From the NCBI GenBank assembly GCA_018401705.1, contig JAGYKL010000002.1, forward strand, positions 67,526 through 131,525: a stretch of DNA of 64,000 bases. Reading direction: 5' to 3'. Below, in pieces: positions 1-17,714 of this stretch. A program made the translations under genes and the position numbers. The DNA comes from Bacteroidia bacterium (lineage in GTDB: Bacteria > Bacteroidota > Bacteroidia > M30B66). Within the stretch, counting starts at the first letter, position 1; each line of letters opens with the position of its first letter. Below the pieces are notes generated by a model. The model was not told the origin of the DNA. It did no database searches and worked only from the letters and a program-made list of their open reading frames with translations.

Positions 1-2
1 CT

Positions 3-1418
<1,416 letters not shown>

Positions 1419-1466
1419 TCAGTGAAACTAAGCTGGAGTCCGGGCAAATACTGGCAACCTAAATTT

Positions 1467-2498
1467 ATGAATAAGTACTTTTTGTTTGATGGTGGTTTTA
1501 AACTAGAATCCGGGGAAGAATTGGCTTCCCCGGTAATTGCATACCACACCTACGGCACGTTAAATAAAGATGCCTCAAATGTTATATGGGTTTGTCATGC
1601 CTTAACAGCAAACTCAGATGCCGTCGAATGGTGGAAGGGTCTTGTTGGAGAAGGATTTCTCTTTGACCATGCCCGAGATTTTATTGTGTGTGCCAATGTT
1701 CTTGGCTCATGTTATGGGACTACGGGTCCATTGAGTAAGAATCCCGCCGAAGGCGGACCTTATTACTATGACTTCCCATTTATAAGCATTAAGGATATGG
1801 TAAATGCACATATCGAATTAAGGAAGCACCTTGGTATTGAGAAAATTAAACTACTTATTGGAGGTTCACTGGGCGGACAGCAAGCTTTAGAATGGTCAAT
1901 AGAAGAACCTGAGCGAATAAAACGTCTGATTCTAATTGCTACCAATGCCATTCACTCAGCTTGGGGAATCGCATTTAACGAGGCTCAGAGAATGGCCATT
2001 AGGGCAGATTTGACCTATAGCGAAAGACTACCCAATGCAGGTAAAGTAGGTTTAGAAGCTGCTCGAGCTATTGCTATGTTAAGCTACAGGACTTATGAAA
2101 CATTTCAATTAACGCAAGAAGATAGGAACAAGTCGTTATATGAAACTGCTGCTGCTGTTAGTTATCAGCAATATCAAGGACAAAAACTAAGCAAGCGATT
2201 CAATGCATTTAGTTATATAACACTACTTAATGCAATGGACAGTCATGATATAGGTCGTGGCAGGAAATCCATCGAAGATGCCCTTTCAAAAATTCAGGCT
2301 AATACTCTGGTAGTGAGCATTAGCAGTGACAATCTTTTCCCGGTGGATGAACAAAGACGCCTGGCTCTCTTTATCCCTGATTCAACACATACAATCATTC
2401 ATTCTATTTATGGACACGATGGATTTCTCATTGAAACCTGCGCACTAAGGAACGAAATCATAAAATTTCTTTTAGAAACAACAAACGTTAGTATATGA
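1467..2498 (+). CDS. metX: Homoserine O-acetyltransferase
   Basis: An alpha/beta-hydrolase-fold acyltransferase that acetylates homoserine, giving the substrate of the preceding metY product. The nucleophile elbow GGSLGGQQ puts the catalytic Ser at residue 134. The C-terminal acid and base lie in the SSDNLFPVDEQ and YGHDGFL segments, as usual for MetX. I chose ATG 1467 because the family normally begins just before the F-x-LESG motif. The frame is also open from a GTG at 1422, 3 bp after the metY stop, which would add 15 residues. It overlaps hom by 4 bp, so translation is probably coupled. Confidence 0.93.
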   Translation: MNKYFLFDGGFKLESGEELASPVIAYHTYGTLNKDASNVIWVCHALTANSDAVEWWKGLVGEGFLFDHARDFIVCANVLGSCYGTTGPLSKNPAEGGPYYYDFPFISIKDMVNAHIELRKHLGIEKIKLLIGGSLGGQQALEWSIEEPERIKRLILIATNAIHSAWGIAFNEAQRMAIRADLTYSERLPNAGKVGLEAARAIAMLSYRTYETFQLTQEDRNKSLYETAAAVSYQQYQGQKLSKRFNAFSYITLLNAMDSHDIGRGRKSIEDALSKIQANTLVVSISSDNLFPVDEQRRLALFIPDSTHTIIHSIYGHDGFLIETCALRNEIIKFLLETTNVSI

Positions 2499-3742
2499 GC
2501 ACTCAAAAAATAAATATTGGATTATTCGGTTTTGGACCTGTAGGACAAGGCTTTTACAAACTTGCAGGGCAGCGCGCTAATAATAAAATCAATATCATAC
2601 GAATAGCGGTTAAAGACCAAAAAAAAGAAAGAACCCTAGATCGTTCGGCATTTACATTCGATTATCGAGAGCTACTGCATGCGCCTGATTTAGAACTTAT
2701 TGTAGAAGCTACTGACGATGAACGCGCAGGTTATGAGATAATAAAAACTGCATTATTAAAAGGAATTCCTGTGGTTTCGGCCAATAAAAAGCTTCTTGCG
2801 AATAACTTAGAAGAGTTTGTTGATTTGAGCATAAAAACCCAAACCCCACTGCTATATGAAGCTGCTGCCGCAGGAGCTATTCCCATTATTACAAGTCTAG
2901 ATAGTTACTTTAACGATGAAGTAGTTAATGCTATAAGAGGAATTATAAACGGCACAACTAATTATATTTTAAGTAGTATGCTTCAGCAAGGAATCAGTTT
3001 TGAAACTGCCTTGAAAAATGCTCAAGAGCTTGGCTTTGCCGAATCTGACCCTAAGAATGATGTAGATGCCTACGATGCTGCTTTTAAGTTGGCATTGTTG
3101 TCTGTTCATGCTTTTGGGAAAATCTTAGATGTAAATGATATTCTGCGTTATGGAATAAGGTTCATAAAAAAAGAAGATCATCAGGAGGCAGAGGCACTTG
3201 ATAAAGTGATAAAATTAATTGCTCATGTTTTCCCTTCGGGCGATGGAATTGAGGGCCTTGTGTTACCAACATGGCTTGCTAAGGAAGATGATTTCTCAAG
3301 TGTGTCGGCAGAGTTTAATGCCATTGAAATACTTGCTAAAGATAGTGGCGCGCATCTTCTAAAAGGCAAAGGTGCCGGGTCTTTACCAACCGGTTCGGCT
3401 TTGTTGAATGATGTAATCAAAGCCCTTTCGGGCGGATATACTTATAAGAAACTCAATAAAGCTCAGAATCCGGATGGTATCGAAATCGAGGTAATTCTAA
3501 CTCTTAAAAACCCAAGTGAAATTAATGGCTTATTGGAAGTTCAGAAACAGGTTGAAGCGAATGGGAATATCAAAATCACAGCTTGGATAAACACAAGAGA
3601 CTTAAAGGCTCAAATAGGATACTTGGAAGAAAATGAGGCTGGACTTATTTCAACCGGAAGGATAAGAAAGGTGATTAAGCAAAGCAAGTCAGATAAATTA
3701 AGTTGTACAGAAAAGAAGATTCAGAATGAAGTTCTGAATTAG
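2495..3742 (+). CDS. hom: Homoserine dehydrogenase
   Basis: A monofunctional NAD(P)-dependent homoserine dehydrogenase of 415 residues that reduces aspartate semialdehyde to homoserine, feeding MetX and threonine synthesis. The Rossmann motif GLFGFGPVGQGF is at residues 9-20, and the catalytic domain shows GIINGTTNYIL and the ESDPKNDVDAYDAAFKL segment with the substrate-binding acids and lysine. The C-terminal tail of about 90 residues does not look like a clear ACT domain. The start overlaps the metX stop as ATGA. Confidence 0.93.
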   Translation: MSTQKINIGLFGFGPVGQGFYKLAGQRANNKINIIRIAVKDQKKERTLDRSAFTFDYRELLHAPDLELIVEATDDERAGYEIIKTALLKGIPVVSANKKLLANNLEEFVDLSIKTQTPLLYEAAAAGAIPIITSLDSYFNDEVVNAIRGIINGTTNYILSSMLQQGISFETALKNAQELGFAESDPKNDVDAYDAAFKLALLSVHAFGKILDVNDILRYGIRFIKKEDHQEAEALDKVIKLIAHVFPSGDGIEGLVLPTWLAKEDDFSSVSAEFNAIEILAKDSGAHLLKGKGAGSLPTGSALLNDVIKALSGGYTYKKLNKAQNPDGIEIEVILTLKNPSEINGLLEVQKQVEANGNIKITAWINTRDLKAQIGYLEENEAGLISTGRIRKVIKQSKSDKLSCTEKKIQNEVLN

Positions 3743-3756
3743 TTCCTCATTTGGCT

Positions 3757-3810
3757 TCATCGACCTCTCCCCTAACCCCTCTCCTCAAGGAGAGGGGAAG
3801 ATAATTGATA
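3757..3810. repeat. Palindromic intergenic repeat, copy 1
   Basis: A unit containing a 10-bp perfect stem with a 2-nt loop (3776-3785 with 3788-3797), flanked on the left by a C-rich segment and on the right by GATAATTGATA. A second copy follows at 3844-3920. It lies just after hom and could also act as its transcription terminator. Dispersed palindromes of this CCCCTCTCC/GGAGAGGGG type occur between genes in many bacteria. Confidence 0.7.
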
Positions 3811-3843
3811 GAATTTGCATGGTTTTTTGACTTTCTCCTAGCA

Positions 3844-3920
3844 TCATCGACCTCTCCCCTAACCCCTCTCCTTGACGAGGCAAGCTCCTCATAAACAGGG
3901 AGAGGGGAAGATAATTGATA
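3844..3920. repeat. Palindromic intergenic repeat, copy 2 with enlarged loop
   Basis: The same unit as copy 1, with left arm 3863-3871 and right arm 3899-3907. The 2-nt loop is replaced by a longer insert that holds its own small inverted repeat (GAGG and CCTC). Both flanking sequences of the unit are kept, so this is a variant copy and not chance similarity. Confidence 0.7.
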
Positions 3921-3959
3921 TAATTTTCTTTATGTTTGTTAATGTTAAGAGATTGAATC

Positions 3960-4182
3960 ATGGAAAGTATAACCATTTATCCAAAAAACGAGAAGTAAAA
4001 ATCCTTACTCAAATCCCTTTTGGAGGAGTTGAAAGTTCGTTTTGAAATAGGAGAAAAAAAAGATGATTCGATTCTTTCGAAAGAAGAATTCCATTCCAAA
4101 ATAGACAAGTCAATTAAACAAGCAAAAGAAGGAAGAACCAAAATTCTTTCCAAAGACAAGCAAAAGAATTATTGGGTTTAAG
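3960..4182 (+). pseudogene. Degraded antitoxin of a YoeB/Txe-type pair
   Basis: Reading from ATG 3960 gives MESITIYPKNEK, then a TAA at 3996 where relatives carry a glutamine (CAA to TAA is one change). The same frame continues with a recognisable small antitoxin body (SLLEELKVRFEIGEKKDDS, KIDKSIKQAKEGRTK). Near the end the usual KELLGL tail is present only in another frame, so a base also appears to be lost around 4170. A short stop-bounded reading frame on the opposite strand here is a shadow. Family assignment rests on resemblance to the Asp/Lys-rich antitoxins paired with YoeB toxins. Confidence 0.7.
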
Positions 4183-4210
4183 AATTACTAACTTGAATTA
4201 ACTGATGTTG

Positions 4211-4450
4211 TACGTTCGACATTGAAAACATATACCTGATAAGAAACTGCTTATTAAAATTGACAAGCTTTTCAATGAATTAAGGAAACATCCAAGTACC
4301 TGGAACTGGAAAACCTGAGAACAAAAGCATTATAAAGTTGCAGCTTTGTCAAGAAGGATTTCTGATAAGCACAGATTAATCTACCGAATTGTTGAAGAAA
4401 AAGTTATAGTCTTGATTTTTTTAATTTGGGGACATAATAATGACAAATAG
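4211..4450 (+). pseudogene. Degraded YoeB/Txe-family toxin
   Basis: Frame pieces rebuild a RelE-superfamily toxin: KKLLIKIDKLFNELRKHPST (from 4241), GTGKPE in a shifted frame around 4302-4320, and LSRRISDKHRLIYRIVEEK from about 4343, ending at TAG 4448. The SRRI...HRLIYRI block is the catalytic C-terminal half of YoeB. A TGA at 4316, paired shifts around 4300-4325 and another shift near 4226 break the frame, and the first 10-15 residues are not recognisable. It follows the dead antitoxin in the usual antitoxin-toxin order. Confidence 0.68.
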
Positions 4451-4550
4451 CAAACAGCATATAACAAAGGTTTTCACTCGAGATTACTCATTTCTCCGCT
4501 TCGGGCCTTCGAGAGCCTCAGGCACCTCAGATAGAAATTAATAGCGGTTC

Positions 4551-4660
4551 GCGCACAGGGGCAGTTTGGGATTGGTGACCAAAATATTTCAATCTACGAC
4601 GAAGTTACAAAGAAACCGAAATGATCAACCTTCAGAAATGCCCAAACTGCGCTTGTGCGC
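4551..4660. repeat. 20-bp imperfect inverted repeat with 70-bp spacer
   Basis: The arm at 4551-4570 matches the reverse complement of 4641-4660 at 18 of 20 positions. It sits between the dead toxin-antitoxin pair and higBA, in a segment richer in GC than its surroundings. Together with the AGCATATAACAAAGG segment near 4457 and the CTGTTAGCAG segment at 4660-4669, it resembles the folded recombination sites of mobile gene cassettes, but the 7-bp core boxes do not match the attC consensus well. The rest of 4451-4704 shows no gene. Confidence 0.5.
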
Positions 4661-4704
4661 TGTTAGCAGATGTGCCCTTTCCATTTACATTCCGAGACAA
4701 TAGT

Positions 4705-4733
4705 TTGCAAATTGAAAACTTTGTTTATCTTTG
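4705..4733 (+). promoter_or_regulatory. higBA promoter (TTG-N18-TATCTTTG)
   Basis: A TTG at 4705-4707 and TATCTTTG at 4726-4733 are separated by 18 bp and match the Bacteroidota primary sigma consensus TTG-N17-20-TAnnTTTG. Transcription should begin about 5 nt further on, essentially at the GTG start codon of higB at 4738, which implies a leaderless or nearly leaderless message. Confidence 0.7.
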
Positions 4734-4737
4734 TCAT

Positions 4738-5046
4738 GTGAAAGTTCTTGTCAGGAAAACGATTCAATACTATATCAAAAAGTATCCAATGGCTGAAACT
4801 CAGTTATTGATATGGTTTACAGAATTTTCCGGGCATAAATTCAATAATTTCAATGAGCTTAAGAAAGTCTATGGAAATGCTAGCATCGTGAATAATAACA
4901 GAGTTGTTTTTAATATAAAGGGTAACGAATTCCGATTGGTCATTTCAATAAATTTCTCTCAAGCTGCATCTTATGTCATTTGGTTTGGAACGCATAAAGA
5001 ATACGACAAAATTAATGCTTGTTATCATTTGATACTTCAATTTTAA
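4738..5046 (+). CDS. higB: HigB-type mRNA interferase toxin
   Basis: A type II toxin of the HigB/RelE superfamily that cleaves mRNA on the ribosome. The family-defining block NNNRVVFNIKGNEFRLV followed by GTHKEYDKI is fully present. The open frame extends up to 4621, but that extension overlaps the promoter and an inverted repeat and has no family similarity. With GTG 4738 the protein begins KVLVRKTIQYY (102 residues), matching the normal N-terminus of the family. The higA gene follows 18 bp later in toxin-first order. No inactivating change is visible. Confidence 0.87.
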   Translation: MKVLVRKTIQYYIKKYPMAETQLLIWFTEFSGHKFNNFNELKKVYGNASIVNNNRVVFNIKGNEFRLVISINFSQAASYVIWFGTHKEYDKINACYHLILQF

Positions 5047-5064
5047 CAAGCAAAAAATAATGTC

Positions 5065-5421
5065 ATGACCTGGAAAGTTTTAAAAACAGAAGAAGAGTAT
5101 AACAAAGCTTCCATTCGAATGATGGAAATATTTCATGCCGAGCCGAACACACCAGAAGGTGATGAGCTGGATTTGTTATTAGTCCTTGTAAAAGATTTTG
5201 ATGACAAACATTATCAATTGCCTGAACTCGATGCATTAGAAGTCATCAAATACAAGATGAAAGAGAAAGGACTGAAGGCAAAAGATCTTGAATCTATTAT
5301 TGGAAGTAAAGGTCATGTTTCTGCAATACTGTCTGGTAAACGTGAAATCACTCTAAAAATGGCGCAAAAACTGAAAAATTATTTTAGTATTCCAGCCGAA
5401 GTCTTTCTACATGGCGCCTAA
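5065..5421 (+). CDS. higA: HigA-type antitoxin (HTH)
   Basis: Antitoxin and DNA-binding partner of higB, 118 residues. Residues 1-55 form an acidic N-terminal part; about 60-115 form an XRE-type helix-turn-helix, visible as KEKGLKAKDLESIIGSKG followed by VSAILSGKREITLKMAQKL. In the family, the antitoxin blocks the toxin and represses the shared promoter. It is translated from the same message as higB. Confidence 0.88.
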   Translation: MTWKVLKTEEEYNKASIRMMEIFHAEPNTPEGDELDLLLVLVKDFDDKHYQLPELDALEVIKYKMKEKGLKAKDLESIIGSKGHVSAILSGKREITLKMAQKLKNYFSIPAEVFLHGA

Positions 5422-5504: not shown

Positions 5505-6932
5505 TTACTCCACCTTCACCACCTTCTCAACCACAACAACTTCCTCACCCTGCATAACCCTACAATAATAAATACCTTGGGCTAAACCGTTCAAATCCAA
5601 CGTATGTGTGCCGATGCCTGAGAACTGCTCGTTTTGAATTAGGCGGCCGGTGGCGTCTAGGATGCTTACTTGGAAAGTACCTTTTAGAGAAGAATTACGA
5701 ATATTTAATTGATTCGAAATTGGGTTTGGATAAATCTCAAATGCATCTAGGTCTGGCTTATTTTCAATAGATGTAGCATTACCGCAAGGTTCATAAACAT
5801 CAGGGCCAACGTATTTGGCAATATATTTTATTGTCGTATCGGATTCAATTAAATTAAAGCCCCCACTGACAATAATCTCATTATTGAACTCAACGATACT
5901 AGAAATCTGTCCTGCAAAGGTATTTAATTCAGTACCTAAGCTACACCAATTTTCACCGTCCCAAACAGCGATGTTTGGCGCAAATACTCCACCTGCAAAT
6001 AGTATTTGCCCAGAAGCATAAAGCTTTCCGTTAATGACTTGCGCATCTAAAATATGATTGTCTACAAAATTTTCTAAACCTCCACCTACATCATCCCATT
6101 GTTCTCCGTCCCAAGCGGCAATGCCATTACCCGGACTGCCCCAAGATTTACTCATGGCTCCATAAACCAATAATTTACCACCATATAATTCAAAGCCTTC
6201 AACTCTTGATAATGAACCAGGAATACCACCGCTTACAGAAGTCCATTGAAGCCCATCATATTGAAGAATGTTCCACTTTGGTCCACCAAAATTATCATAT
6301 TCATAGAAGTGGCCTCCAATAAACCACCTACCATTGAAGTATTCAATATCCTTAATAGGTCTAGCTACCGAATAAATCTGAGGGGCATCAAATACTGAAC
6401 TCCATGTGTAGCCATCGTATTTAGCAACTGAATTAGCTGCAACGCCATTACAAAATGAAAACTGACCACAAACATATAATTCATCGTTGATGATTTTTAA
6501 GCGGTGACCTATTCCTCTTATGCCAGAATTGTACAATAAACCTTCTCCAACAGGCTCCCATTCGCTTCCATTAAATCGTATTAAACTATTTGAAAGTTGT
6601 CCATTGATTGTCGTAAATGCGCCAGTAGCATATATTGTATCATGAAATACGATCACATCATTAACATCAACAAATAAATTAGCAATTGGTAGATTCATGC
6701 AGTCATGAACTATTCCACAACCAATCTCAGAAAAGGTATTTCCATCCCATTTAGTTACCTGATACATTGCTTCACCATCCACAACCTTAAAATAGCCACA
6801 GAAATAGAGCTCATTATTTAACTCATCATGATAGGCAATTTTTGTATATCCATTAAAAGAAGCTACCGGAGCCCAATTTTGAGCATGGCTCGTTGCACTA
6901 AACAAAAGAATAAATACAGTTGCTATTCTCAT
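5505..6932 (-). CDS. Secreted kelch-like propeller protein with T9SS sorting domain
   Basis: 475 residues: signal peptide at 1-17 (ending SHAQ), then repeated segments of the type NGKLYASGQ...WDGENW that resemble kelch/galactose-oxidase beta-propeller strands. Residues from about 397 form a type A T9SS sorting domain (EIYPNPISNQLNI through GIYYCRVMQ). It is predicted to be exported by Sec, carried across the outer membrane by T9SS and released or attached. It is the last gene of the operon and overlaps the preceding gene by 4 bp. The ligand is unknown. Confidence 0.85.
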   Translation of the reverse strand: MRIATVFILLFSATSHAQNWAPVASFNGYTKIAYHDELNNELYFCGYFKVVDGEAMYQVTKWDGNTFSEIGCGIVHDCMNLPIANLFVDVNDVIVFHDTIYATGAFTTINGQLSNSLIRFNGSEWEPVGEGLLYNSGIRGIGHRLKIINDELYVCGQFSFCNGVAANSVAKYDGYTWSSVFDAPQIYSVARPIKDIEYFNGRWFIGGHFYEYDNFGGPKWNILQYDGLQWTSVSGGIPGSLSRVEGFELYGGKLLVYGAMSKSWGSPGNGIAAWDGEQWDDVGGGLENFVDNHILDAQVINGKLYASGQILFAGGVFAPNIAVWDGENWCSLGTELNTFAGQISSIVEFNNEIIVSGGFNLIESDTTIKYIAKYVGPDVYEPCGNATSIENKPDLDAFEIYPNPISNQLNIRNSSLKGTFQVSILDATGRLIQNEQFSGIGTHTLDLNGLAQGIYYCRVMQGEEVVVVEKVVKVE

Positions 6933-8374
6933 CTTTTAATAATCTTATAGGCTTTTGAGTTTGCTTCAGTTTCTGAATAAACAACTAGAAAATAAATTCC
7001 CGAAGATTCTCCACTTAAATCAAACTGATATTTCTGAATCCTCTTTTGAGATTGTACCTGTTGAATCTGCTGACCAAGGTAATTGTATATAGCAAAGCTT
7101 CCTGTGAAATCTTCATTGAAATCAATACTAAATATACCATTTGTAGGGTTGGGGTAAAGAGAAGCAACATCATCCTTTATTTCATTTTCAATAGAAGTAG
7201 CATTACCACAAGGTTCATTAACATCAGGGCCAACATACCTTGCTATATATTTTAATGTAGAATCACCATTGATTGACCAAAAACCTCCACTAATAATCAG
7301 ATGGTTGTCATGCAAAGTAATGCCTGTAACTCTATTATCAAACGTATTTGGCAATACCCCAAGTCCGCACCAATTCGTCCCATCCCAAGAGGCAATATTA
7401 TAAATGGGCTGACCTCCTGCAATTGTAAAATCTCCGACAACGTAAAGTCTGTCATTAAAAACAACAGCATCGAAATTTGTTGGATCAAAATTAGTCGTAT
7501 TGGTTAACCCACCACCTACATCCAACCATTCATTTCCATCCCATGCTGCTATTCCGTCACCAGGGTCGCCAGCGTTTTTCGACATTCTGCCGATACAATA
7601 TAATTTATCTTGAAATTTAATGAGCTTAAATGGTCCAGATAAACCACCTGGGATACCATTACCAACTCCTACCCATTGATTTCCGTCAAACTTGGCTATT
7701 CTGTCTATTTCAATTGAATCTTCATTTGAACTAAAAAAACTTCCGATAACGTATATTTCATCATTATAAATCTCAATATCAGTTATGCTACTAATAGAAA
7801 CTGAACTAGGAAAATTATAAGTATTTGACCATTGACCATTTTGGAAAACGGCGATCGAAGTGCATTCTACACCATCTACTGTATCGAACGATCCTATTAA
7901 AAATAATCTACCATTAAGAATTTTCAATGACCCTGAACCTGTAAATTGCCCACCAGATAATAACCCAGTTCCAAAATTATTCCAATCATCATTTTCATAA
8001 AATGCTAAACTATTTAAAACTTGATCATTTGAGTAAGTAAAAAAACCAGAAGCAAATAGTTTCTCATTATACCTAACAATTGAACCTATACTTACTAAAT
8101 TTGGACTAACATAAATAGAATCATCAAAACAATTGCATTCTATTCCACATCCAAGTCTTTGAAAATTATTATTTGAGTCAAGCCTTGTAATTCTGCATAT
8201 TGTTTGATTATTTATTTGAGTAAAGCTTCCTCCAATAAATAATTCATTTGTTTCATTATCTGCATAAAAGCCACTAATGCGCTTATCGAAATCCCCTACA
8301 AACTCCCAATCTTGAGAATAAGCCGAATTCGTTAAGATAACTGTGGCGATTATTAGTTTGAATCTAATCATCAA
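6929..8374 (-). CDS. Secreted kelch-like propeller protein with T9SS sorting domain (paralog)
   Basis: 481 residues, a paralog of both neighbours. The signal peptide MMIRFKLIIATVILTNSAYS is identical to that of the gene at 9817. The body repeats the NELFIGGSFTQI / FDGNQWVGVG propeller pattern, and the C-terminus from about residue 405 is a type A sorting domain (SLYPNPTNGIFSIDF...GIYFLVVY). Start and stop overlap the neighbouring genes by 4 bp each, which points to translational coupling within the operon. Confidence 0.85.
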   Translation of the reverse strand: MMIRFKLIIATVILTNSAYSQDWEFVGDFDKRISGFYADNETNELFIGGSFTQINNQTICRITRLDSNNNFQRLGCGIECNCFDDSIYVSPNLVSIGSIVRYNEKLFASGFFTYSNDQVLNSLAFYENDDWNNFGTGLLSGGQFTGSGSLKILNGRLFLIGSFDTVDGVECTSIAVFQNGQWSNTYNFPSSVSISSITDIEIYNDEIYVIGSFFSSNEDSIEIDRIAKFDGNQWVGVGNGIPGGLSGPFKLIKFQDKLYCIGRMSKNAGDPGDGIAAWDGNEWLDVGGGLTNTTNFDPTNFDAVVFNDRLYVVGDFTIAGGQPIYNIASWDGTNWCGLGVLPNTFDNRVTGITLHDNHLIISGGFWSINGDSTLKYIARYVGPDVNEPCGNATSIENEIKDDVASLYPNPTNGIFSIDFNEDFTGSFAIYNYLGQQIQQVQSQKRIQKYQFDLSGESSGIYFLVVYSETEANSKAYKIIKR

Positions 8375-8609
8375 TTTTTGATAAACTTTAAAGTCTTGAA
8401 GATATCTAAATCTGATTGAAAATTAACCAAATAAATACCTCTAGCCCAATTAGAAGAATTAACAGAAAGTAGCTTTGTGTTCTTATTGAGAATAAATCTA
8501 TCTACAACTTTACCTTCAATAGAGATTATGGTTACCCCACTAACACTATTATCTTTAAAATCAATAACAAACTGGTCATTACTTGGATTAGGGTAAAGGG
8601 AAATATCAT
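8298..8609. repeat. 312-bp direct repeat, copy A
   Basis: Nearly identical to 9741-10052, offset by exactly 1443 bp with few mismatches. The repeat spans the junction between two genes: the end of one sorting domain plus the signal-peptide start of the next. It marks a recent tandem duplication or gene conversion of one propeller gene. Confidence 0.85.
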
Positions 8610-9186
8610 GTTGTGTTAGATTTTCTTCAACACTTGTAGTATTGCCGCAAGGCTCATAAACATCAGGACCAACATAGCGAGCTATATATTTTAATGTAGA
8701 ATCTCCATTGATTGACCTAAACCCACCTCCAATAATAAGACTACCATTGTGCACGCCGATTCGACTAACCCTATTATCAAAAGTATTTGGTAAAACTCCC
8801 AGACCACACCAATTTATTCCATCCCATGCGGCAATGTTATTTATTGGCTGTCCGCCAGCTACAGTAAAATCTCCAACAACGTAAAGCCTATTATTAAAGA
8901 CTACAGCGTCTGGATTAGTAGGAGTGCTAGTATTATTATTTCCATTTAACCCCCCTCCAACATCCAACCATGAGCTCCCATCCCATGCAGCAATTCCATC
9001 CCCGGGGTCACCTGAATTTTTTGACATTCGCCCTACTACAAACAGTTTGTCCTGAAAAACAATGAGCTTGAAGGGGCCTGATGCCTCCTGGAATACCTTC
9101 AGCCACAGATACCCAAGCATTACCATCAAATTTAACAATTCTATTAATGTTACTTGAATCATTACCGCTACTAATAAAATTACCAA
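8371..9186 (-). CDS. C-terminal part of a frameshifted T9SS propeller paralog
   Basis: This frame carries the second half of a third propeller paralog: from SGPFKLIVFQDKLFVVGRMSK onward it aligns with the 6929-8374 protein, and it ends in a type A sorting domain (SLYPNPSNDQFVIDF). The true coding part begins near 9080; the open frame above that is out of phase. The N-terminal half lies in another frame at 9008-9817. The break is at 9078-9086, where the paralog reads GIPGG-L-SGPFK and this copy lacks two bases or has one extra. Confidence 0.75.
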   Translation of the reverse strand: MVILLVAVMIQVTLIELLNLMVMLGYLWLKVFQEASGPFKLIVFQDKLFVVGRMSKNSGDPGDGIAAWDGSSWLDVGGGLNGNNNTSTPTNPDAVVFNNRLYVVGDFTVAGGQPINNIAAWDGINWCGLGVLPNTFDNRVSRIGVHNGSLIIGGGFRSINGDSTLKYIARYVGPDVYEPCGNTTSVEENLTQHDISLYPNPSNDQFVIDFKDNSVSGVTIISIEGKVVDRFILNKNTKLLSVNSSNWARGIYLVNFQSDLDIFKTLKFIKN

Positions 9187-9817
9187 TTACATAGAATTCC
9201 CCGAGATATTCTTCAATATCGAAAACAGAAACGCCAATATTTCCGAAAGTTGGAAAATCATAAAATGAATACCAAATTCCATCTTCCAGATAGGCTATAG
9301 AATTGGCATCAATGCCAGCACAACTGTCGAACGACCCTAAAACAAATAGTTTATTCCCAATTATTTTCAATTTACGGCCAGAGCCAGGCGTTTCAAATAA
9401 TTGTAAACCAGAAAGAACTGGCAGCCATGTATTGTTTGTGGAATCAAATTTTGCAAGACCATTAACTAATACTTGATTAGATCGTCTAAATAAACCTGTT
9501 GCATAAACTTCATTATTAAATTTTGCAATTGACAACACAGGACCTAAACCGGTTGTTGAGGTGTCATTAGACTCACAAATGCAATCGAAACCGCAACCCA
9601 ATGGAGAAGTTGTATCTTCTGATTTTATTAAAATTGCACAAACATCAAGAAAATTTGACTTGGTAAATTCACCTCCAATAATTAATGAATTTAAAAGATC
9701 GTCTGAATAAAAACATCTAGGACTATCATCTAAGTCTAACACAAACTCCCAATCTTGAGAATAAGCCGAATTCGTTAAGATAACTGTGGCGATTATTAGT
9801 TTAAATCTAATCATCAA
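9008..9817 (-). CDS. N-terminal part of a frameshifted T9SS propeller paralog
   Basis: It begins with the same signal peptide as the next gene (MMIRFKLIIATVILTNSAYS) and has the first propeller half up to VSVAEGIPGG. It then leaves the correct frame near 9083 and ends after a short unrelated tail at 9008. Joined to 8371-9083 it would give a protein of about 480 residues like its neighbours. The start overlaps the stop of the giant upstream gene by 4 bp. It could be a real pseudogene or an assembly error. Confidence 0.75.
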   Translation of the reverse strand: MMIRFKLIIATVILTNSAYSQDWEFVLDLDDSPRCFYSDDLLNSLIIGGEFTKSNFLDVCAILIKSEDTTSPLGCGFDCICESNDTSTTGLGPVLSIAKFNNEVYATGLFRRSNQVLVNGLAKFDSTNNTWLPVLSGLQLFETPGSGRKLKIIGNKLFVLGSFDSCAGIDANSIAYLEDGIWYSFYDFPTFGNIGVSVFDIEEYLGEFYVIGNFISSGNDSSNINRIVKFDGNAWVSVAEGIPGGIRPLQAHCFSGQTVCSRANVKKFR

Positions 9818-10052
9818 TTTTTGATAAACTTTAAAGTCTTGAAGATATCCAAATCTGATTGAATTTTAACCAAATAAATACCTCTAGCCCAATTAGAAGA
9901 ATTAACAGAAAGTAGCTTTGTTTTCTTATTGAGAATAAATCTATCTACAACTTTACCGTCAATAGAGATTATGGTCACCCCACTAACACTATTATCTTTA
10001 AAATCAATAACAAACCGGTCATTACTTGGATTAGGGTAAAGAATAATATCAC
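9741..10052. repeat. 312-bp direct repeat, copy B
   Basis: Partner of 8298-8609. It covers the signal peptide of the gene starting at 9817 and the sorting domain of the giant gene ending at 9814. The two sorting domains differ at only a handful of residues, whereas the propeller bodies between the repeats differ widely. Confidence 0.85.
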
Positions 10053-13000
10053 TTTCAACTTTATTTTCTTCAACAGGTGGTATCGAAAGAGCAACCTCAG
10101 CTAAATCAAACTTAGCAATAAAGCCATCGAAGTCATAACTGAATGTCGCGCCCGGATTTTGAAACCACGAAGGATTTCCTGGAACTGAAGAATCTTCAAA
10201 AGGGAAATTCAAATTATGATTTCCAGCATAACCGGATATGTAAAGTTTATCATTACTAGAAATTGCTACTGCAGAACTAACATCAAAATTCCTTGGATAC
10301 CAAAGGCCTGGTCCAAAATTATCATCGCTTCCAAAATAACTAGCCCAATTAAATTTATTGGTATTGCTATTTAAGCTAAAAATTGTGACGTCAGTTGCAA
10401 GATTTTGAGCCCCGCCATCATAAATATCATCAAAAAACATAGGAGAGCTAAGGTTTGAAGATTGCAAAGTATAGCTGCCATTTCCACTACAAAGAGATAC
10501 TCCGAAAATGTTACCATTGGAAGATGATGCTAACCCTAGAGTTTTGGGATAAATGTTATTGTAATCTTCTCCAAAAAAAGAGTCGTTGGGAAAAAAGTAA
10601 CCCGGCTGGGCATCCTTAAAATATTGAGTTCCTGGGATTAAACTTGCCCATAGAAGATTGAAATTAGTGCTACTAAGTTTCATTAAATAAATTTGCCCAT
10701 TAGTAAAGCCATCCTCTCCTGACTGATAGCAAATTGGTAATGAAGCATTTGCCAGCGTTGGGGTGCATTGCAATGAAGTGCTTGGATTATCAGTATAGCC
10801 ACCAACATAAACAATATCATTAACAGAAGTTATTGTTTGAAATTCAACATCTTTAACATTTGTAGACCCATTCAAGATAAACCCATTGGGTTTGAATCTT
10901 GATATAAAACCCCCTGAACTTTTTTCAAAGTAAGAGCTACCTACATTACAAAGTGGAAAATCTATAAAGCCAGCGTCATGCTGATCAATCCAATTGCCTG
11001 AACAATCATAGGTTGCGTCTGACACTTTATCTGTTTGCCCAACAACAAATATATAACTTGGTATATCAACGCTAACGTCTACAAAATGAATATCATATAT
11101 TTTGTCATTACTATTGCTGCCAAAGAAAGTCGAGCCAGTTAATTCATTATTTGATTTAAACCTGGAAATAAATCCACTTTGAAAACCATCTAAACCACTA
11201 TTTAAATTTACATTCTGATAATAGCCCATACCTTGCGCACACAATGGGAACTCATAATTAGTGCCTGGCTGACAAGTTTCAATTGTTGTTTCAGAATTAG
11301 TGTTTCCTGCAAAATAATAATTGTCAGCCTTATCATTTGTTATCGAAACAATTTCATCAAAGCCTTCCCCTCCAAAATATGTAGACCACGTTCTACTACC
11401 ATCACTAATTCTAAGAGATGTTATTACAGCATCAAAATCTCCATGATTACCGGGTTGGTTGAAACTATTTTGCCCCCCTTCAACAAGAGGATAATCCTCT
11501 GAATCAGATTTACCTGCAAAAAACACCTCCCCATTAGTTGAGTTTTGTTCTGAAAGGGTTTGTAACATATCCCATCCTGAGCCTCCATAATAAGTTGACC
11601 AAACTAATTGATCATTTTCATTAAAACTAGCCATGAAGCCATCGTACCACCCTCCGGTGTTTTCAGAATAAAGCTCGTTTAAATAAGGAAAGTTATTTGA
11701 TGAAGTCATTCCACAAACCAAAACCTGATTCCCTTGAACAACCCCTTCAGAAATAGTTGTTGTCATATCTAGGATATAATCATTGCCATCACCCCCAAAA
11801 TAAGTGCTCCATTCAATGTTACCATCGATGACCTGTAAAGCCCTCACCTTTTTCTTTATCTCTATAACCAAAGGCAAATTGCTTGCGTAACTTCCAACAT
11901 TACCAAATGACATTTGACCAAAACTAATTTGGTAATTTGGCTGCCAGGGTAGTTTGCTTTTTTGACCATTTGGGTACAATGTATAAGCTTCCGCCTTATC
12001 AAAGCTCTTTTCTCCAAGAATAGATTGAATAAATAATTCTCCGTTGGCATCTGTAAATACTGAATCCTGACCATCGAATTTAACTTTTATGTCACCCACT
12101 TTTCCACCTGGGTTCACAATAAAATTAATTAACAAACCTTCTTGGTTACTAGCAAATTCTGCATCAATATTGAACCATGCATTTTGCTTATATAATGAAC
12201 TATGTGTAGGAACTCTTTCTCGGCCATTTTCAATATGTGGATAATAGAAATTGGTCATTGATTTATTATTACCACGCGGCTCATACCTTGTATTTTCAGT
12301 TCCATTTACGAAAATCATATCAACTCTTTGTAAAGAATCCATTGCGTTTCCTGAAGTATCAGCATAGATTTTAGAGAAAACAAAGCTTACTGTATCCGTT
12401 TTATAGTAAGTGCTAGGATACATAAATTGATTGTAGTAAAGCACCTCTGTTTCTGATTGAGCGTTTGTATTTAGCAATTGACCTCTATTTTCTATAAAAC
12501 CTCCAGCTGAAGCAGATTGAGAGTTTGATTCTGTTTCGTGAATTTGTTTTTTCATGTAACGTACTGTTGTATAATTCATTGTGCTGTCTGTTTCGCTTTG
12601 CCCTGAAATAACCACTGCTCCAGCATCATCAATGGCAAGCGCTGTAGCTCGATCATTTTTATTGGACCAGCTATTCCATGTTTTTTGGTAACGTAAATTC
12701 CCTAAGGTGTCATATTGCTGCACAAAATAATCATCATTGGCATCATTAAATGTTGAGCCTGCTATGGTGATAAGACCAGCTTGGTCAATTAATACAGCAT
12801 TTGCAGTATCAGCACCTGAGCCTTCGCCATTGTAACTTTTTGCCCAAAGCAAGCTACCACTAGCATTGTATTTTAACAAGCGAGCATCAGTTCCATTTTC
12901 TGCTGTTTGAGAATATCCCGTTACATAAACATTTCCATTATCGTCAAAAGTTAAGGCCTTGCCCTCATCGTTGTAAGATGCGGCACTATTGTAAGTTGAT

Positions 13001-14736
13001 GACCAGATTACAGATAAACTACTATTTAAAGCAACAGTTTGTATGTCTCTTCCAGAAGCTCCACTAGGTGTACTCCCTGTTAAATAAATATTTCCGTTTG
13101 AAGCAAATTTTACATCTCTGAGCTTATAGAAATTAATACTATCACTTGCTGCGATGCTTGTTGAGATTGTATCTCCTGATGGATTATAAGTAACCGATAG
13201 AAAACTAAAATCAGTTATTCCGGTTTGCGAAACACCTGCCACGGTAATTGTGTCTCCAGAGGTCACAGTATGTCCAGTAGCAACATCGAATAAACCATTA
13301 TCATACACTTTGTTCCAAAGGATATTTCCATTAGTGTCAAGTTGCATAGTTAGAAAGTCGGTTAGGGGAGCCAATGTGCCTGTTGTTATACCCGAAACAT
13401 ACACTTTGCTGGTCGATGAATTAACGCTAATATCAACACCTGCATCAGCTCCATCGCCAACACCATTAAAATGCGCGCTCCAAGCTAATGTTCCATTTGA
13501 TAAATATTTTAGAACAATTACGTCATTACTATCAGCTGCTACTTCAACAGATGAACCGCAAACAAAAAGTGAAGCATTGTTGTCTAATTCAATATCCCCA
13601 ACAACATCCATCCCATTTGCTGCTCCTCCATATTGCTCACACCATAAATTCACACCGTTTGAGTCGTATTTGCATACCAAAATATCATAATCTCCATTTT
13701 CATTTAACGTTGAACCAGCTTTGTAAACATTGCCTAGAGCATCAGTTTTAACCAAAGTCTTATGGTTTAAGAAAAACTCTTGAGCTCCATCATTACTTGC
13801 CCAATCAAAAACAAGTTCAGTAGCAGGTGTATAGGGCTCATTTGCACTTTCAACAATAGTTAAACTAGCAGATCCCTCACAACCATCTAAATTGGTAACT
13901 ATTACAGATACTGAATCCGCATTAATAAAAGATGATGAAGAGTAATAGCTCTGAGCACCATTTTGAACTTCAATTCCATTATTCAAAAATTTATAATTCA
14001 GTTGATTTTCAGGTGAAGCTTGCACAAAACCTAAATAACCATCAATTAAAGTGTCTAGATTAGTGGTAAGTTCAGGAATGAAGCTACACACTCCACCCAA
14101 ATTAACTATAGTCGGGTAAGAAGTAATTACAGCTGTGCCTTTTACATTTCCGGCTGTGCTTGTTCCAGAGTAAGCTGCATTTCCTTTGTCTTTCCACGTA
14201 CTACCATCCCAAAATGCTACTGAAGCATCTACGGGTGCTGTGCTGTAACATGGGTTATTGCTCCAACCTAAGGTTGGAGTTGTATTTTGTGTACCGAAGG
14301 TTCTGTCGAATACCCAATACCCACAACGGTTAACAAATCCAATGGTAGAGTCTTTTGCAGAACGGCTGTACAGTGAATCAGGGTCTTGAGCAAAGTATTC
14401 AACTTTAAAGGTGCAGTTTGATGCTACGGCATCTAGAGTTACAGGCGCATACACCCCACCACCTCCAACAGGATAAGTAAATGCACTTGTGCCATACCTG
14501 AGCATAGCGCCTTCTACATAAGCACTATCTGAACCTCCTGTTATGGTCGTATTTAATGATGCTGCAAAATTGTTTCCTGCCGTTGGCTTTATGATTCCTT
14601 TCTGAAGGTTTATGTTTAAAGCAACTGTAATTGGCATATCTATGATTAAATCTCCGCTAGGTTTATCTACATCTAACCTTAAAAATATGGTATGATGGCG
14701 AATGTCCTCTAGAGATGGTTTGATTGCCAGTTCCAT
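9814..14736 (-). CDS. Giant secreted SBBP-repeat protein with T9SS domain (C-terminal bulk of a broken gene)
   Basis: 1640 residues without a signal peptide of its own; the N-terminal parts of the same gene lie at 14797-15993 and 15986-16525 in other frames, so the first residues here are probably not a true start. In order: a carbohydrate-binding-like region; a propeller with repeats of the GNVYVTGYSQT type (about 330-735); an FIENRGQ module normally found at the mature N-terminus of SBBP proteins (about 750-1000); SBBP repeats marked by WSTYFGG (about 1000-1560); and a type A sorting domain (LYPNPSNDRFVIDF). It looks like a fusion of two secreted architectures. Confidence 0.75.
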   Translation of the reverse strand: MELAIKPSLEDIRHHTIFLRLDVDKPSGDLIIDMPITVALNINLQKGIIKPTAGNNFAASLNTTITGGSDSAYVEGAMLRYGTSAFTYPVGGGGVYAPVTLDAVASNCTFKVEYFAQDPDSLYSRSAKDSTIGFVNRCGYWVFDRTFGTQNTTPTLGWSNNPCYSTAPVDASVAFWDGSTWKDKGNAAYSGTSTAGNVKGTAVITSYPTIVNLGGVCSFIPELTTNLDTLIDGYLGFVQASPENQLNYKFLNNGIEVQNGAQSYYSSSSFINADSVSVIVTNLDGCEGSASLTIVESANEPYTPATELVFDWASNDGAQEFFLNHKTLVKTDALGNVYKAGSTLNENGDYDILVCKYDSNGVNLWCEQYGGAANGMDVVGDIELDNNASLFVCGSSVEVAADSNDVIVLKYLSNGTLAWSAHFNGVGDGADAGVDISVNSSTSKVYVSGITTGTLAPLTDFLTMQLDTNGNILWNKVYDNGLFDVATGHTVTSGDTITVAGVSQTGITDFSFLSVTYNPSGDTISTSIAASDSINFYKLRDVKFASNGNIYLTGSTPSGASGRDIQTVALNSSLSVIWSSTYNSAASYNDEGKALTFDDNGNVYVTGYSQTAENGTDARLLKYNASGSLLWAKSYNGEGSGADTANAVLIDQAGLITIAGSTFNDANDDYFVQQYDTLGNLRYQKTWNSWSNKNDRATALAIDDAGAVVISGQSETDSTMNYTTVRYMKKQIHETESNSQSASAGGFIENRGQLLNTNAQSETEVLYYNQFMYPSTYYKTDTVSFVFSKIYADTSGNAMDSLQRVDMIFVNGTENTRYEPRGNNKSMTNFYYPHIENGRERVPTHSSLYKQNAWFNIDAEFASNQEGLLINFIVNPGGKVGDIKVKFDGQDSVFTDANGELFIQSILGEKSFDKAEAYTLYPNGQKSKLPWQPNYQISFGQMSFGNVGSYASNLPLVIEIKKKVRALQVIDGNIEWSTYFGGDGNDYILDMTTTISEGVVQGNQVLVCGMTSSNNFPYLNELYSENTGGWYDGFMASFNENDQLVWSTYYGGSGWDMLQTLSEQNSTNGEVFFAGKSDSEDYPLVEGGQNSFNQPGNHGDFDAVITSLRISDGSRTWSTYFGGEGFDEIVSITNDKADNYYFAGNTNSETTIETCQPGTNYEFPLCAQGMGYYQNVNLNSGLDGFQSGFISRFKSNNELTGSTFFGSNSNDKIYDIHFVDVSVDIPSYIFVVGQTDKVSDATYDCSGNWIDQHDAGFIDFPLCNVGSSYFEKSSGGFISRFKPNGFILNGSTNVKDVEFQTITSVNDIVYVGGYTDNPSTSLQCTPTLANASLPICYQSGEDGFTNGQIYLMKLSSTNFNLLWASLIPGTQYFKDAQPGYFFPNDSFFGEDYNNIYPKTLGLASSSNGNIFGVSLCSGNGSYTLQSSNLSSPMFFDDIYDGGAQNLATDVTIFSLNSNTNKFNWASYFGSDDNFGPGLWYPRNFDVSSAVAISSNDKLYISGYAGNHNLNFPFEDSSVPGNPSWFQNPGATFSYDFDGFIAKFDLAEVALSIPPVEENKVESDIILYPNPSNDRFVIDFKDNSVSGVTIISIDGKVVDRFILNKKTKLLSVNSSNWARGIYLVKIQSDLDIFKTLKFIKN

Positions 14737-14796: not shown

Positions 14797-15993
14797 TTAA
14801 CTGATGTATTGCTGTATCCCGCCAAGTATTCCGCTACCGCTTCTATCATAAGTTACGTCATCATGATACACACAAGCTGCTCCAGCATAATTTATCTGCC
14901 AAGTACCACTGCTGTGGGTCGATTTAAATGAAACCGGTCCATAACAGGTTAGGTTTCCGCTACCTTGATCGGTAATATTGCCGGTTTTAATTAATGTTAA
15001 TGAATCTGCATATGTTCCACCTTGAATCATAATGGATGGAAATTCAGCTTTGAACTTCCCTGAAAATGAAGAGCCTGTTCCTAAAGTGATGCGGTTTGAA
15101 CTTCCTGTTGATACAAGATGTACCTCTGTACTACTTAGTTGATTAAAATTCTTAAAAGTGATGCCTCCACCCAGATTTGTATAGCTTATAGAGCTGGCAC
15201 TTTGCTGATTTAGACCTCCAAAGATTAGAAGTCCGCCCGTTGAGTTAATAGAAATGTTACCCGTTATACTAGCTCTGTTGGCCGTTTCGATGCCTATAGA
15301 TAAAGTTCCATTGGTGATAATGGTTTCTAAATTTCCGGCAATGGTATTCCCCGCCCCGCGTCTACAGAAAGCTAAGTTGCCCGTTGAAGTGTTTTCTAAA
15401 GTGACATCCTGATAGGAATCTCCATGGTCGCCCTCGATGTAAAAAAGACCACTTCCTGTGTTTTTAAAGTGAACCGATCCTGTAGCTGTTATTGGACCAA
15501 GACTTTGGTCCACACCACTACCTGTTTTTGTAAACTCAGTTAAGCCCTGAAGTTCGCACTGATGAATCAACAGGTTTGAAGCCGAAAGACTCAGACTATC
15601 TTCAAAAACAGTTTCATTGTCCAACAAAAAGGAAGAATTTCCGCTTAAGCTTAAATATGTGGGAACGGCTACTGTTGAATTTAAAAATTTAACTTGACCT
15701 AATGCAAATCCACTTGTATCAATACCTACAGATGCAGTAGAATCGAACAAACAATCTCGAAATTCAATTACAGAAGTTGAAAAAGTTCCAACAGCTGAGC
15801 TGTTGGTTGAGAGCTTAACTTGATTTAGCAGTGCGGTTGTTGAACCGGTGTTGCCAACCTGAATGCCTGTAGAGGTAGCTGAGGCGCCTCTCTGAAATAA
15901 AGTATATCCCTCAAAGCGATTTCCTATTGATGAAATTCCAAAAACAAGTGCATTGCTTCCATTGGAAACAGCAAAAAGACTGTCTTCAAACAC
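14797..15993 (-). CDS. Middle part of the broken giant T9SS gene (beta-helix-like)
   Basis: 398 residues of short Ser/Thr/Asn-rich repeats (SLTLSASNLLIHQCELQG, GNLETIITNGTLSIG and similar) typical of secreted right-handed beta-helix or adhesin-like regions. There is no signal peptide. The correct reading continues upstream as DYITQSGTGLFVFGQSNPD, joining the 15986-16525 frame near 16055-16062, where one base appears lost. Downstream the frame breaks between about 14800 and 14740, with at least two more shifts before the 9814-14736 frame. Confidence 0.65.
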   Translation of the reverse strand: MFEDSLFAVSNGSNALVFGISSIGNRFEGYTLFQRGASATSTGIQVGNTGSTTALLNQVKLSTNSSAVGTFSTSVIEFRDCLFDSTASVGIDTSGFALGQVKFLNSTVAVPTYLSLSGNSSFLLDNETVFEDSLSLSASNLLIHQCELQGLTEFTKTGSGVDQSLGPITATGSVHFKNTGSGLFYIEGDHGDSYQDVTLENTSTGNLAFCRRGAGNTIAGNLETIITNGTLSIGIETANRASITGNISINSTGGLLIFGGLNQQSASSISYTNLGGGITFKNFNQLSSTEVHLVSTGSSNRITLGTGSSFSGKFKAEFPSIMIQGGTYADSLTLIKTGNITDQGSGNLTCYGPVSFKSTHSSGTWQINYAGAACVYHDDVTYDRSGSGILGGIQQYIS

Positions 15994-16525
15994 GTCGGGG
16001 TTGCTTTGACCAAAGACAAATAAACCCGTTCCTGATTGAGTAATGTAATCGGCTCCAACTCAAAGTATTGCCTCCCGAATTTACGTTTGCAGAACCGGTA
16101 TAGTTCAATGAAACTTCGCCTTGATAGGTACTTGATGTTGTAATGATGGATGAACCTGAAGCACTTACGTCTGCCGAAAATGTTGAAGAACTTGCATTGA
16201 AGGAGCCTGTAAAAAGTTCTCCACTTGAAACACTACAAGAGGTAAATGAACCTGTGCCACTTACCGTTAAAGTGTAGGTGTTTAGGTCTAAGGTTGAACT
16301 GCTTGATAAAGTAAGGGAAGCAACAGTTCTATTGCCATCTAAGACAGGTTGATTGGTCGAACTTGCAATGCTTACAGCATCGCCCGCAGATGGCACTCCA
16401 CTTGGAGACCAATTGGAAGAAGTTGCCCAATCAGTATCGGTTGAGCCTGTCCAAGTGTAAGATGTTTGAGAAAAACCATTCAGACTCAATAGCCCAAAGA
16501 GTAAAAAGAAGGTAAAGAATTTCAT
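15986..16525 (-). CDS. N-terminal part of the broken giant T9SS gene (signal peptide)
   Basis: It begins with a clear signal peptide (MKFFTFFLLFGLLSLNGFSQ) followed by a Ser/Thr-rich region with YTWTGSTDTDWATSSNWSP, a motif common at the start of large Bacteroidota cell-surface proteins. After about residue 155 the frame is wrong because of the deletion near 16055-16062; the last 24 residues are nonsense. Restored, the gene would span 9814-16525 and encode about 2230 residues. Confidence 0.7.
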   Translation of the reverse strand: MKFFTFFLLFGLLSLNGFSQTSYTWTGSTDTDWATSSNWSPSGVPSAGDAVSIASSTNQPVLDGNRTVASLTLSSSSTLDLNTYTLTVSGTGSFTSCSVSSGELFTGSFNASSSTFSADVSASGSSIITTSSTYQGEVSLNYTGSANVNSGGNTLSWSRLHYSIRNGFICLWSKQPRRV

Positions 16526-16582
16526 AAGCTAATGAGTTTTATGGAGTCTTTATAAGAATTGAGTGGTAATGAAAGGCAATAA

Positions 16583-17014
16583 TTAATTGAGCATTCCGGT
16601 GTAAGAGCCAAGAACAGCACCTGTTGAAGAAAGGGCATCAAGGCGCAGGTAGGCAAAGTCGCGGTTAACAAACTGCCCCAATGAAAACTGACACATAATA
16701 CCTGTTCTTGAAAAGGATAAAAAGGCAGAAGCAATTTCGCCCGAGAAATTGAAGCTATGATTTAGAATATCTGAACCACCTTCTTCATTACCTAGCTTAA
16801 CTCTAATAGAAGCTATACCTGAAGTGTCAGAGACCTGACAAGAGAGTCCTTTTGCTACCGATGTTACAAGTTCAAGATTGCCGTATTCATCGTAGGTTGT
16901 ATCAACTTGAACATCTGTAGAAATCCCTTCCACAAACTGGAAATCGATGGTTTGAGCGAGAGAATTGCTAATCGAAATTGCAACTACATATATATAAAGT
17001 ACAATTGTTCTCAT
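16583..17014 (-). CDS. Small secreted protein, first gene of the T9SS operon
   Basis: 143 residues with a signal peptide at 1-20 (ending SNSLAQ) and a beta-rich body; I do not recognise a family. It has no sorting domain. It lies 57 bp ahead of the giant gene on the same strand and is the first gene after the promoter at 17036-17063. Small secreted proteins of this kind often accompany large surface proteins in Bacteroidota, but a role here is only inference. Confidence 0.65.
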   Translation of the reverse strand: MRTIVLYIYVVAISISNSLAQTIDFQFVEGISTDVQVDTTYDEYGNLELVTSVAKGLSCQVSDTSGIASIRVKLGNEEGGSDILNHSFNFSGEIASAFLSFSRTGIMCQFSLGQFVNRDFAYLRLDALSSTGAVLGSYTGMLN

Positions 17015-17035
17015 ATCATTTAAGTTTTATTGTCC

Positions 17036-17063
17036 TAAATGTAGGGAACAAATACAGGTGCAA
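17036..17063 (-). promoter_or_regulatory. Likely promoter of the T9SS operon
   Basis: On the minus strand, TTG (17063-17061), 17 bp and TACATTTA (17043-17036) match TTG-N17-20-TAnnTTTG with one mismatch. Transcription would start about 16 nt before the ATG at 17014. A run of ten C (minus strand) lies only 5 bp upstream of the TTG box. Confidence 0.55.
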
Positions 17064-17068
17064 TGTTA

Positions 17069-17078
17069 GGGGGGGGGG
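17069..17078. repeat. Poly-G/C tract of 10
   Basis: Ten consecutive G on the plus strand in an otherwise AT-rich spacer, immediately upstream of the presumed T9SS operon promoter. It is the longest G/C homopolymer I noticed in the window. Such tracts change length by slippage and, at this spacing, can alter promoter strength. Confidence 0.8.
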
Positions 17079-17231
17079 TGAACTAATTGTTATGGAATTG
17101 TTAAGGGCGACAAAGAATATTGCTCGGTTACTTAATAATAATGTTAAACCAAAACCTAAATTGATAACAATCAAAGGCACTTACATCTCTGAGTTTAACA
17201 AGCCTTAATCAATTATGTGTTTAGGTACATG

Positions 17232-17714
17232 TTAAAACAACTCTGACACAATTACATACCAAACCGGGAAGCTGATAACAACAGCTACAATAGTTTTGAT
17301 TAGGATTCCTGCCAAAGCTCCAAGTAAAGTTCCCGCGCCTGAAAGCGTAGCTTGAGACAAAGACCGCCCTTCCATTAAATCGCCAATGATAGCACCAAGG
17401 AGAAGTCCACCAATCATACCCACGGGAGTAAAAAACATACCTACAACCATACCTACGATACTACCGCGAATACCTGTTTTTGTGGCTCCAAAAATTCTTG
17501 CACTAAAAACCGGTATGGTATAATCAAGGATGAGGACGACTATCGTTAATATTCCAAAAATAATCAGGCTTGAATCTGAAAAGGGGTAGCCATTAAAATG
17601 AAGAAGTAGTAATGCTGCATAGTTAAATGGCGGACCGGGTAGGCCGGGTAGAATACAGCCGGCAATTCCGATCAGGGTTAAAAGGGAAGCCAAAAGTATT
17701 AACCAAATGGGCAT
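17232..17714 (-). CDS. DUF456 family membrane protein
   Basis: 160 residues with four to five hydrophobic segments and the glycine-rich loops typical of DUF456 (LPGLPGPPFNYAALLLL near residue 23, GSIVGMVVGMFF and GGLLLGAIIGDLMEG). It is an inner-membrane protein of unknown function. A heptamer repeat array lies just upstream of its start. Confidence 0.85.
   Translation of the reverse strand: MPIWLILLASLLTLIGIAGCILPGLPGPPFNYAALLLLHFNGYPFSDSSLIIFGILTIVVLILDYTIPVFSARIFGATKTGIRGSIVGMVVGMFFTPVGMIGGLLLGAIIGDLMEGRSLSQATLSGAGTLLGALAGILIKTIVAVVISFPVWYVIVSELF

Follow-up and report, generated by a model that had tools for sequence, protein, structure and literature searches.

A duplicated promoter element with a length-variable poly-C tract suggests a slippage switch for surface-protein operons in an uncultured Bacteroidota

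The genome of an uncultured member of the Bacteroidota carries, in at least five copies, a putative promoter element with a poly-C tract of a different length in each, suggesting that surface proteins may be switched on and off at random. One copy is located in the 64-kb stretch of DNA analysed here (the window), upstream of an operon coding for predicted secreted proteins, followed by proteins with a T9SS tail. Comparison among the copies makes this observation stronger than the sequence of the window alone could show, since it points to a conserved, duplicated promoter element, of which a pure C-tract is the length-variable part. We propose a transcriptional phase variation of the Bordetella fim kind, the tract being the variable spacer of a slippage-switched promoter; judging from the sequences compared, this is probably a working switch, a view that we hold with modest confidence.

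The Poly-C Tract and Its Rarity

The G10/C10 run is the sole run of at least seven G or C in the window; for runs of at least ten in 64 kb, the expected number is 0.002–0.014 under Markov models (orders 0 to 3) trained on the window. In the whole genome, a draft assembly of 3.74 Mb in 95 contigs, five distinct G/C runs of at least eight are observed versus 3.9–18.6 expected from Markov models, with no excess; three of these five, together with one run of seven C and one of six, occupy the homologous position of paralogous promoters, an arrangement that is far from chance. A pattern search for C/G runs of at least seven, which misses exact runs of seven C preceded by G, returned 13 in the genome: four are loci of the element, seven lie inside open reading frames (ORFs) of at least 100 aa, and two, on contigs C51 and C60, lie outside. 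These last two tracts, both of nine C, were considered as further members of the family and rejected, their contexts being unrelated. On contig C60 (L020, positions 438–446) the tract abuts the ATG of a helix-turn-helix regulator predicted by eye, and it may represent another site of slippage, with an effect on either translation or transcription.

Anatomy of the Promoter Element

The element (Table 1) comprises, in order, a TTAACA-like box, a second box 11 bp on, 9 bp, a run of 6 to 10 C, a third box, 20 bp, the motif TAC(A/T)TTTA and the start codon. In the five copies the TAACA of boxes 1, 2 and 3, the length of the 9-nt spacer and the 20-nt distance are constant, and among these parts the tract alone changes; upstream of box 1 the sequence is not conserved across all five copies. 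From this conservation we infer that the element is a promoter. The 11-bp direct repeat of boxes 1 and 2 was also reported independently by a repeat finder; 11-bp direct repeats are typical of OmpR/PhoB-type regulators.

On the minus strand of the window the ten C (17078–17069) are followed by TAACATTG and later by TACATTTA (17043–17036), and 21 nt separate the latter from the ATG. The -7 element of Flavobacterium psychrophilum sigma-A is described as spanning -12 to -5 (PMC9723704); if this also holds here, transcription would start near 17031 on the minus strand, and, by arithmetic on the TAACA parts from the same start, box 3 would fall at -37 to -33, the tract at -47 to -38, box 2 at -61 to -57 and box 1 at -72 to -68. 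The first-pass annotation had read this strand as ten C, TAACA, TTG, 17 nt, TACATTTA and an ATG at 17014, and the reading is exact, with TAACA at 17068–17064 and TTG at 17063–17061. Its further claim, that the tract adjoins a promoter, stands insofar as the tract lies inside the conserved element; however, the TTG that it had taken as the "-35" of a TTG-N17 promoter is TTA in contigs C9 and C18 and TAG in contigs C34 and C10 and is not meaningful, box 3 being conserved there instead. A sigma-70 promoter was rejected, as a scan of 16400–17300 gave a single plus-strand match, below the shuffle mean, and folding of the strand of the element gave nothing beyond shuffles. Genome-wide, TTAACA-N5-HTAACA has eight matches, five of which are the element, versus eight for the reversed control, and thus the boxes alone define no wider regulon; the pattern ACCCCC-N0-7-TAACAT has six matches (the five copies and one on contig C5 without boxes), with three for its reversed control.

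Table 1. Features of the poly-C promoter element and of the operon that follows it in the window
Feature	Position	Strand	Remarks
Box 1, TTAACA	17099–17104	-	Identical in 5/5 paralogs
Box 2, ATAACA	17088–17093	-	11 bp from box 1; TAACA kept in 5/5 paralogs and in the sister species
Spacer, 9 nt	17079–17087	-	TCA at its end, before the tract; equal length in 6/6 copies
C10 homopolymeric tract	17069–17078	-	G10 on the plus strand; approximately -47 to -38 relative to the inferred start
Box 3, TAACA	17064–17068	-	Place of the -33/-35 element; 5/5 paralogs; TAAAA in the sister species
TACATTTA, putative -7 element of Bacteroidota type	17036–17043	-	20 nt after box 3; TAC(A/T)TTTA at the same distance in 5/5 paralogs
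First gene, predicted secreted protein of 143 aa	16583–17014	-	Signal peptide by eye; beta-rich model
Broken module gene, N-terminal piece (179 aa)	15986–16525	-	Frame changes near 16060 relative to the contig C9 and C34 copies
Broken module gene, middle piece (398 aa)	14797–15993	-	
ORF of 1640 aa	9814–14736	-	Module (C-terminal part), DUF7948, SBBP/delta-60 repeats and T9SS tail, in this order
T9SS-tail proteins of 475 and 481 aa	5505–9817	-	With a frameshifted third copy at 8371–9817

The Operon and Its Products

The first gene product has no Pfam or NCBIfam family, and its relatives were found in 5 of the 60 genomes searched, including its own; its model has a pLDDT of 69, with antibody domains as the best matches of the structure search, at low confidence. 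The product of the second gene, a module of some 900 aa, has a beta-rich model, and no structure match was obtained for it at an E of 0.1 or better; the structure searches yielded no function for either protein. The dN/dS of the first gene is 0.26 between the window and contig C9 and 0.18 between contigs C9 and C18, synonymous sites being saturated in the comparisons that involve contig C34; for residues 18–680 of the module, between contigs C9 and C34, it is 0.155. The values of 0.26 and 0.155 indicate constraint on the two predicted proteins.

The module is open in contigs C9 (896 aa) and C34 (917 aa), while a frameshift and two stops interrupt it in the window; in contig C18 it is broken many times, and the first gene has an extra T near its start. 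Contig C24 (L125, positions 1–4511) begins inside the module and contains an open ORF of 1485 aa, the longest open form found in the genome; relative to this form, the downstream part of the contig C9 gene is broken or shortened. As a guess, contig C24 may be the continuation of the contig C10 copy. Downstream of the module the operons diverge, with DUF7948 and delta-60 repeats in the window, a beta-helix in contig C9 and FG-GAP in contig C34. T9SS tails above the cut-offs are present downstream in the window, contig C9 and contig C24, and the match in contig C34 is under the Pfam cut-off. In the window, the C-terminal sorting domain (TIGR04183/PF18962) occurs in ORFs 5505–6932, 6929–8374, 8371–9186 and 9814–14736 and is absent from the first gene. 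Thus, the initial proposal that the controlled genes code for secreted or surface proteins is borne out for operons in which signal-peptide proteins are followed by T9SS-tail proteins, but it has to be narrowed for a first gene without a T9SS tail and for the interrupted second gene of the window. At 8371–9817, two overlapping ORFs (271 and 269 aa) are similar, respectively, to the C-terminal and the N-terminal part of the neighbouring 481-aa T9SS protein, and represent a frameshifted duplicate.

Copies of the Element, Tract Length and Spacing

When 40 genomes were searched at the DNA level with this region, three further copies came to light in the genome itself (contigs C18, C9 and C34), with the tract equally placed in each; a pattern composed of the two boxes, the spacer and five C added a fifth one, located where contig C10 ends. 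With at most one mismatch, and among 10 genomes of the family, this pattern occurs five times in the genome itself (G000), once in the sister species (G001; contig JAGQVC010000035.1 of Bacteroidetes bacterium HKST-UBA05) and in none of the other eight; the reversed control has one match each in G006 and G007 and none in G000 or G001. The five paralogous copies share the element and differ in tract length, as in systems of the fim type: the run has 10 C in the window (contig C12), 9 on contig C9, 8 on contig C34, 7 on contig C18 and 6 on contig C10, with 8 in the sister species, and it is uninterrupted in all six. Its placement, between the conserved boxes and the -7 element, is within the putative promoter, as in contingency loci; in the copy of the sister species the -7 element is not clearly present. 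That these lengths are assembly or sequencing errors is very improbable: the genome is a draft and the coverage of the sister contig is given as 2.9, yet five different contigs and a second species carry the tract, and errors could shift a length by about one, not create a conserved tract. The variation is seen among the five paralogs of one genome, a second strain of the species being absent from the genome_contigs and viral_contigs scans.

Contigs C9 and C18 have 2 substitutions in 90 flanking bp, yet their tracts are two C apart. The alignment of contigs C12 (window) and C9 contains 8 gap events over 2633 bases, one of which is the tract; contigs C9 and C34 show 4, and in the three comparisons with contig C18 the number rises to 20–26, chiefly within the broken gene of that contig. 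A count of 19 differences between contigs C34 and C10 was not used, as it takes in a region ahead of the start codon that aligned poorly. The homology of the window to the contig C34, C9 and C18 copies stops 1 to 44 bp upstream of box 1, which indicates that the promoter was duplicated together with the operon. Neutral drift of a functionless tract, simply carried along by these duplications, would agree with the decay of several copies and with the readiness of homopolymers to drift; it appears improbable, however, since the tract was retained in the sister species and despite saturated synonymous sites in the first gene between contig C34 and the other copies, and the boxes on both sides of it are conserved, whereas the sequence upstream of box 1 is not conserved in all five copies.

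The spacing between box 2 and box 3, measured from start to start, is 24 bp in the window, 23 in contig C9, 23 in contig C34, 21 in contig C18, 21 in contig C10 and 23 in the sister species. An extra T follows the tract in the contig C34 and C10 copies; contigs C9 and C34 are therefore equal in spacing, and differ in effect by a C-to-T change rather than in length. Three values in five copies (21, 21, 23, 23, 24) are against a simple reading of five free lengths. Because the 23-bp copies include both copies with the first two genes open, 23 may just be the working spacing, and the data allow a sharper model, in which 23 works and 21 and 24 do not. The main rival explanation assigns the tract to a fixed part of the promoter, either a spacer or a protein-binding stretch, with a preferred spacing of 23 bp, the other lengths drifting or dying in the absence of any regulated switching. 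The 23 bp of contigs C9 and C34 and of the sister species, and the broken genes of the deviating contigs C12 and C18, are in its favour; a pure C run, on the other hand, would be an unstable build for a fixed spacer, yet interruptions occur in none of the six copies, and the contig C10 copy, with six C, ends with the contig, where the state of its gene is not readable. Overall, we regard this explanation as rather unlikely, while giving it real weight.

G008, belonging to another genus of the same family, has both proteins, but no C/G run of at least five around the first gene. A scan of genome_contigs for the family proteins gave no match, as did the scan of viral_contigs. The element pattern had seven matches in genome_contigs, namely the sister species and six in unrelated genomes, close to a rough chance estimate; in these six, box 3 was not found within 60 bases after the pattern. 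In a Bacteroidales MAG (L103, JAIRNR010000019.1, positions 5560–5597), 13 C follow two TAACA boxes, and a 586-aa ORF whose start resembles a signal peptide lies about 200 bp downstream; this locus is without box 3 or a clear -7 element and may be due to chance.

Proposed Mechanism and Known Systems

In the proposed slippage switch, a putative activator would bind upstream of the tract, at the two TTAACA-like boxes spaced by 11 bp, and RNA polymerase would occupy the downstream side, with box 3 and TAC(A/T)TTTA. The gain or loss of C by slipped-strand mispairing would then shift activator and polymerase by one base relative to each other, about 34 degrees of helix per C, and transcription of each surface-protein operon would rise or fall heritably, independently of the other copies. 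Several points speak against such a switch: the genes of the window and contig C18 copies are broken, and that of contig C9 is shortened relative to the contig C24 form; contigs C9 and C34 and the sister species share one spacing, so that there are three values instead of five; the sister species lacks a clear -7 element; and a mutS1 match above the cut-off is present, hence nothing obvious marks the genome as a mismatch-repair mutant. Where mismatch repair is active, mononucleotide tracts usually slip less, and tracts of six and seven C would be slow switches. A more specific version, which we put forward as a tentative possibility, is a genus-specific repertoire of at least five surface-protein operons, independently switched by poly-C slippage that would alter the helical phase between activator and promoter; copies with an off spacing would no longer be under selection and would degenerate, and this would account for the broken state of the readable copies at 21 and 24 bp.

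The element resembles the architecture of Bordetella pertussis fim3, in which one C is reported to decide expression (PMC10172299); likewise, the C7 and C8 alleles of fimX are described as differing in transcript level (PMC1891110, PMC10172299). As outlined for the BvgA-activated fim2, fim3 and fimX, paralogous surface-protein genes are preceded by a promoter C-stretch that adjoins the activator sites, here, as candidates, the direct-repeat boxes where an activator would bind, with the conserved -7 element downstream, and whose length differs between paralogs. Unlike in Bordetella, the phylum is another, the promoter is TAnnTTTG-like, the tracts are shorter than in fim3, the activator is putative, and T9SS-cargo operons take the place of fimbriae; the first gene, lacking a Pfam or NCBIfam family, is not recognizable as a fimbrial major subunit. 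Variable promoter G-tracts in a paralogous outer-membrane protein family are also described for Treponema pallidum tprE, G, J and L, with eight G or fewer given as permissive in tprE, G and J (PMC7864442); the tprL tract, however, is at the -10 region beside the start site, whereas the present one is upstream of -33/-35, between direct repeats. The Helicobacter pylori adhesin gene sabA, as presented in PMC2715451, similarly combines a promoter-region homopolymer with control by a two-component regulator, ArsRS, but its tract consists of 13–19 T, ArsRS represses, and repeats in the coding region also switch the gene. The invertible promoters of Bacteroides are likewise an example of phase variation of surface components in Bacteroidota (PMC11868660); they need inverted repeats and an invertase, while no strong inverted repeat pair flanks this promoter, and a repeat search of 16800–17400 gave only weak arms, 71–79% complementary, or local palindromes, so that an invertible promoter was rejected.

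If the proposed switch is true, slippage-driven promoter switching, known in Bordetella, Neisseria, Helicobacter and Treponema, would extend to Bacteroidota and to T9SS surface-protein operons, and slippage-type transcriptional phase variation would be present in a phylum known for invertible promoters. The benefit would likely be escape from phages or grazers rather than immune escape, in an uncultured and possibly environmental bacterium. No description of slippage switching in Bacteroidota was recognized in a limited open-access literature (titles and starts of abstracts), and no priority is claimed. With five lengths occurring naturally, the spacing model lends itself to a direct test.

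Other Features of the Window

The intergenic region at 3746–3937 contains a repeat of the CTCTCCCCTAACCCC type, which recurs several times in L016 at 77–83% identity. The adjacent region (3950–5421) looks, by eye, like what is left of a toxin-antitoxin pair, with a HigBA-like pair after it.
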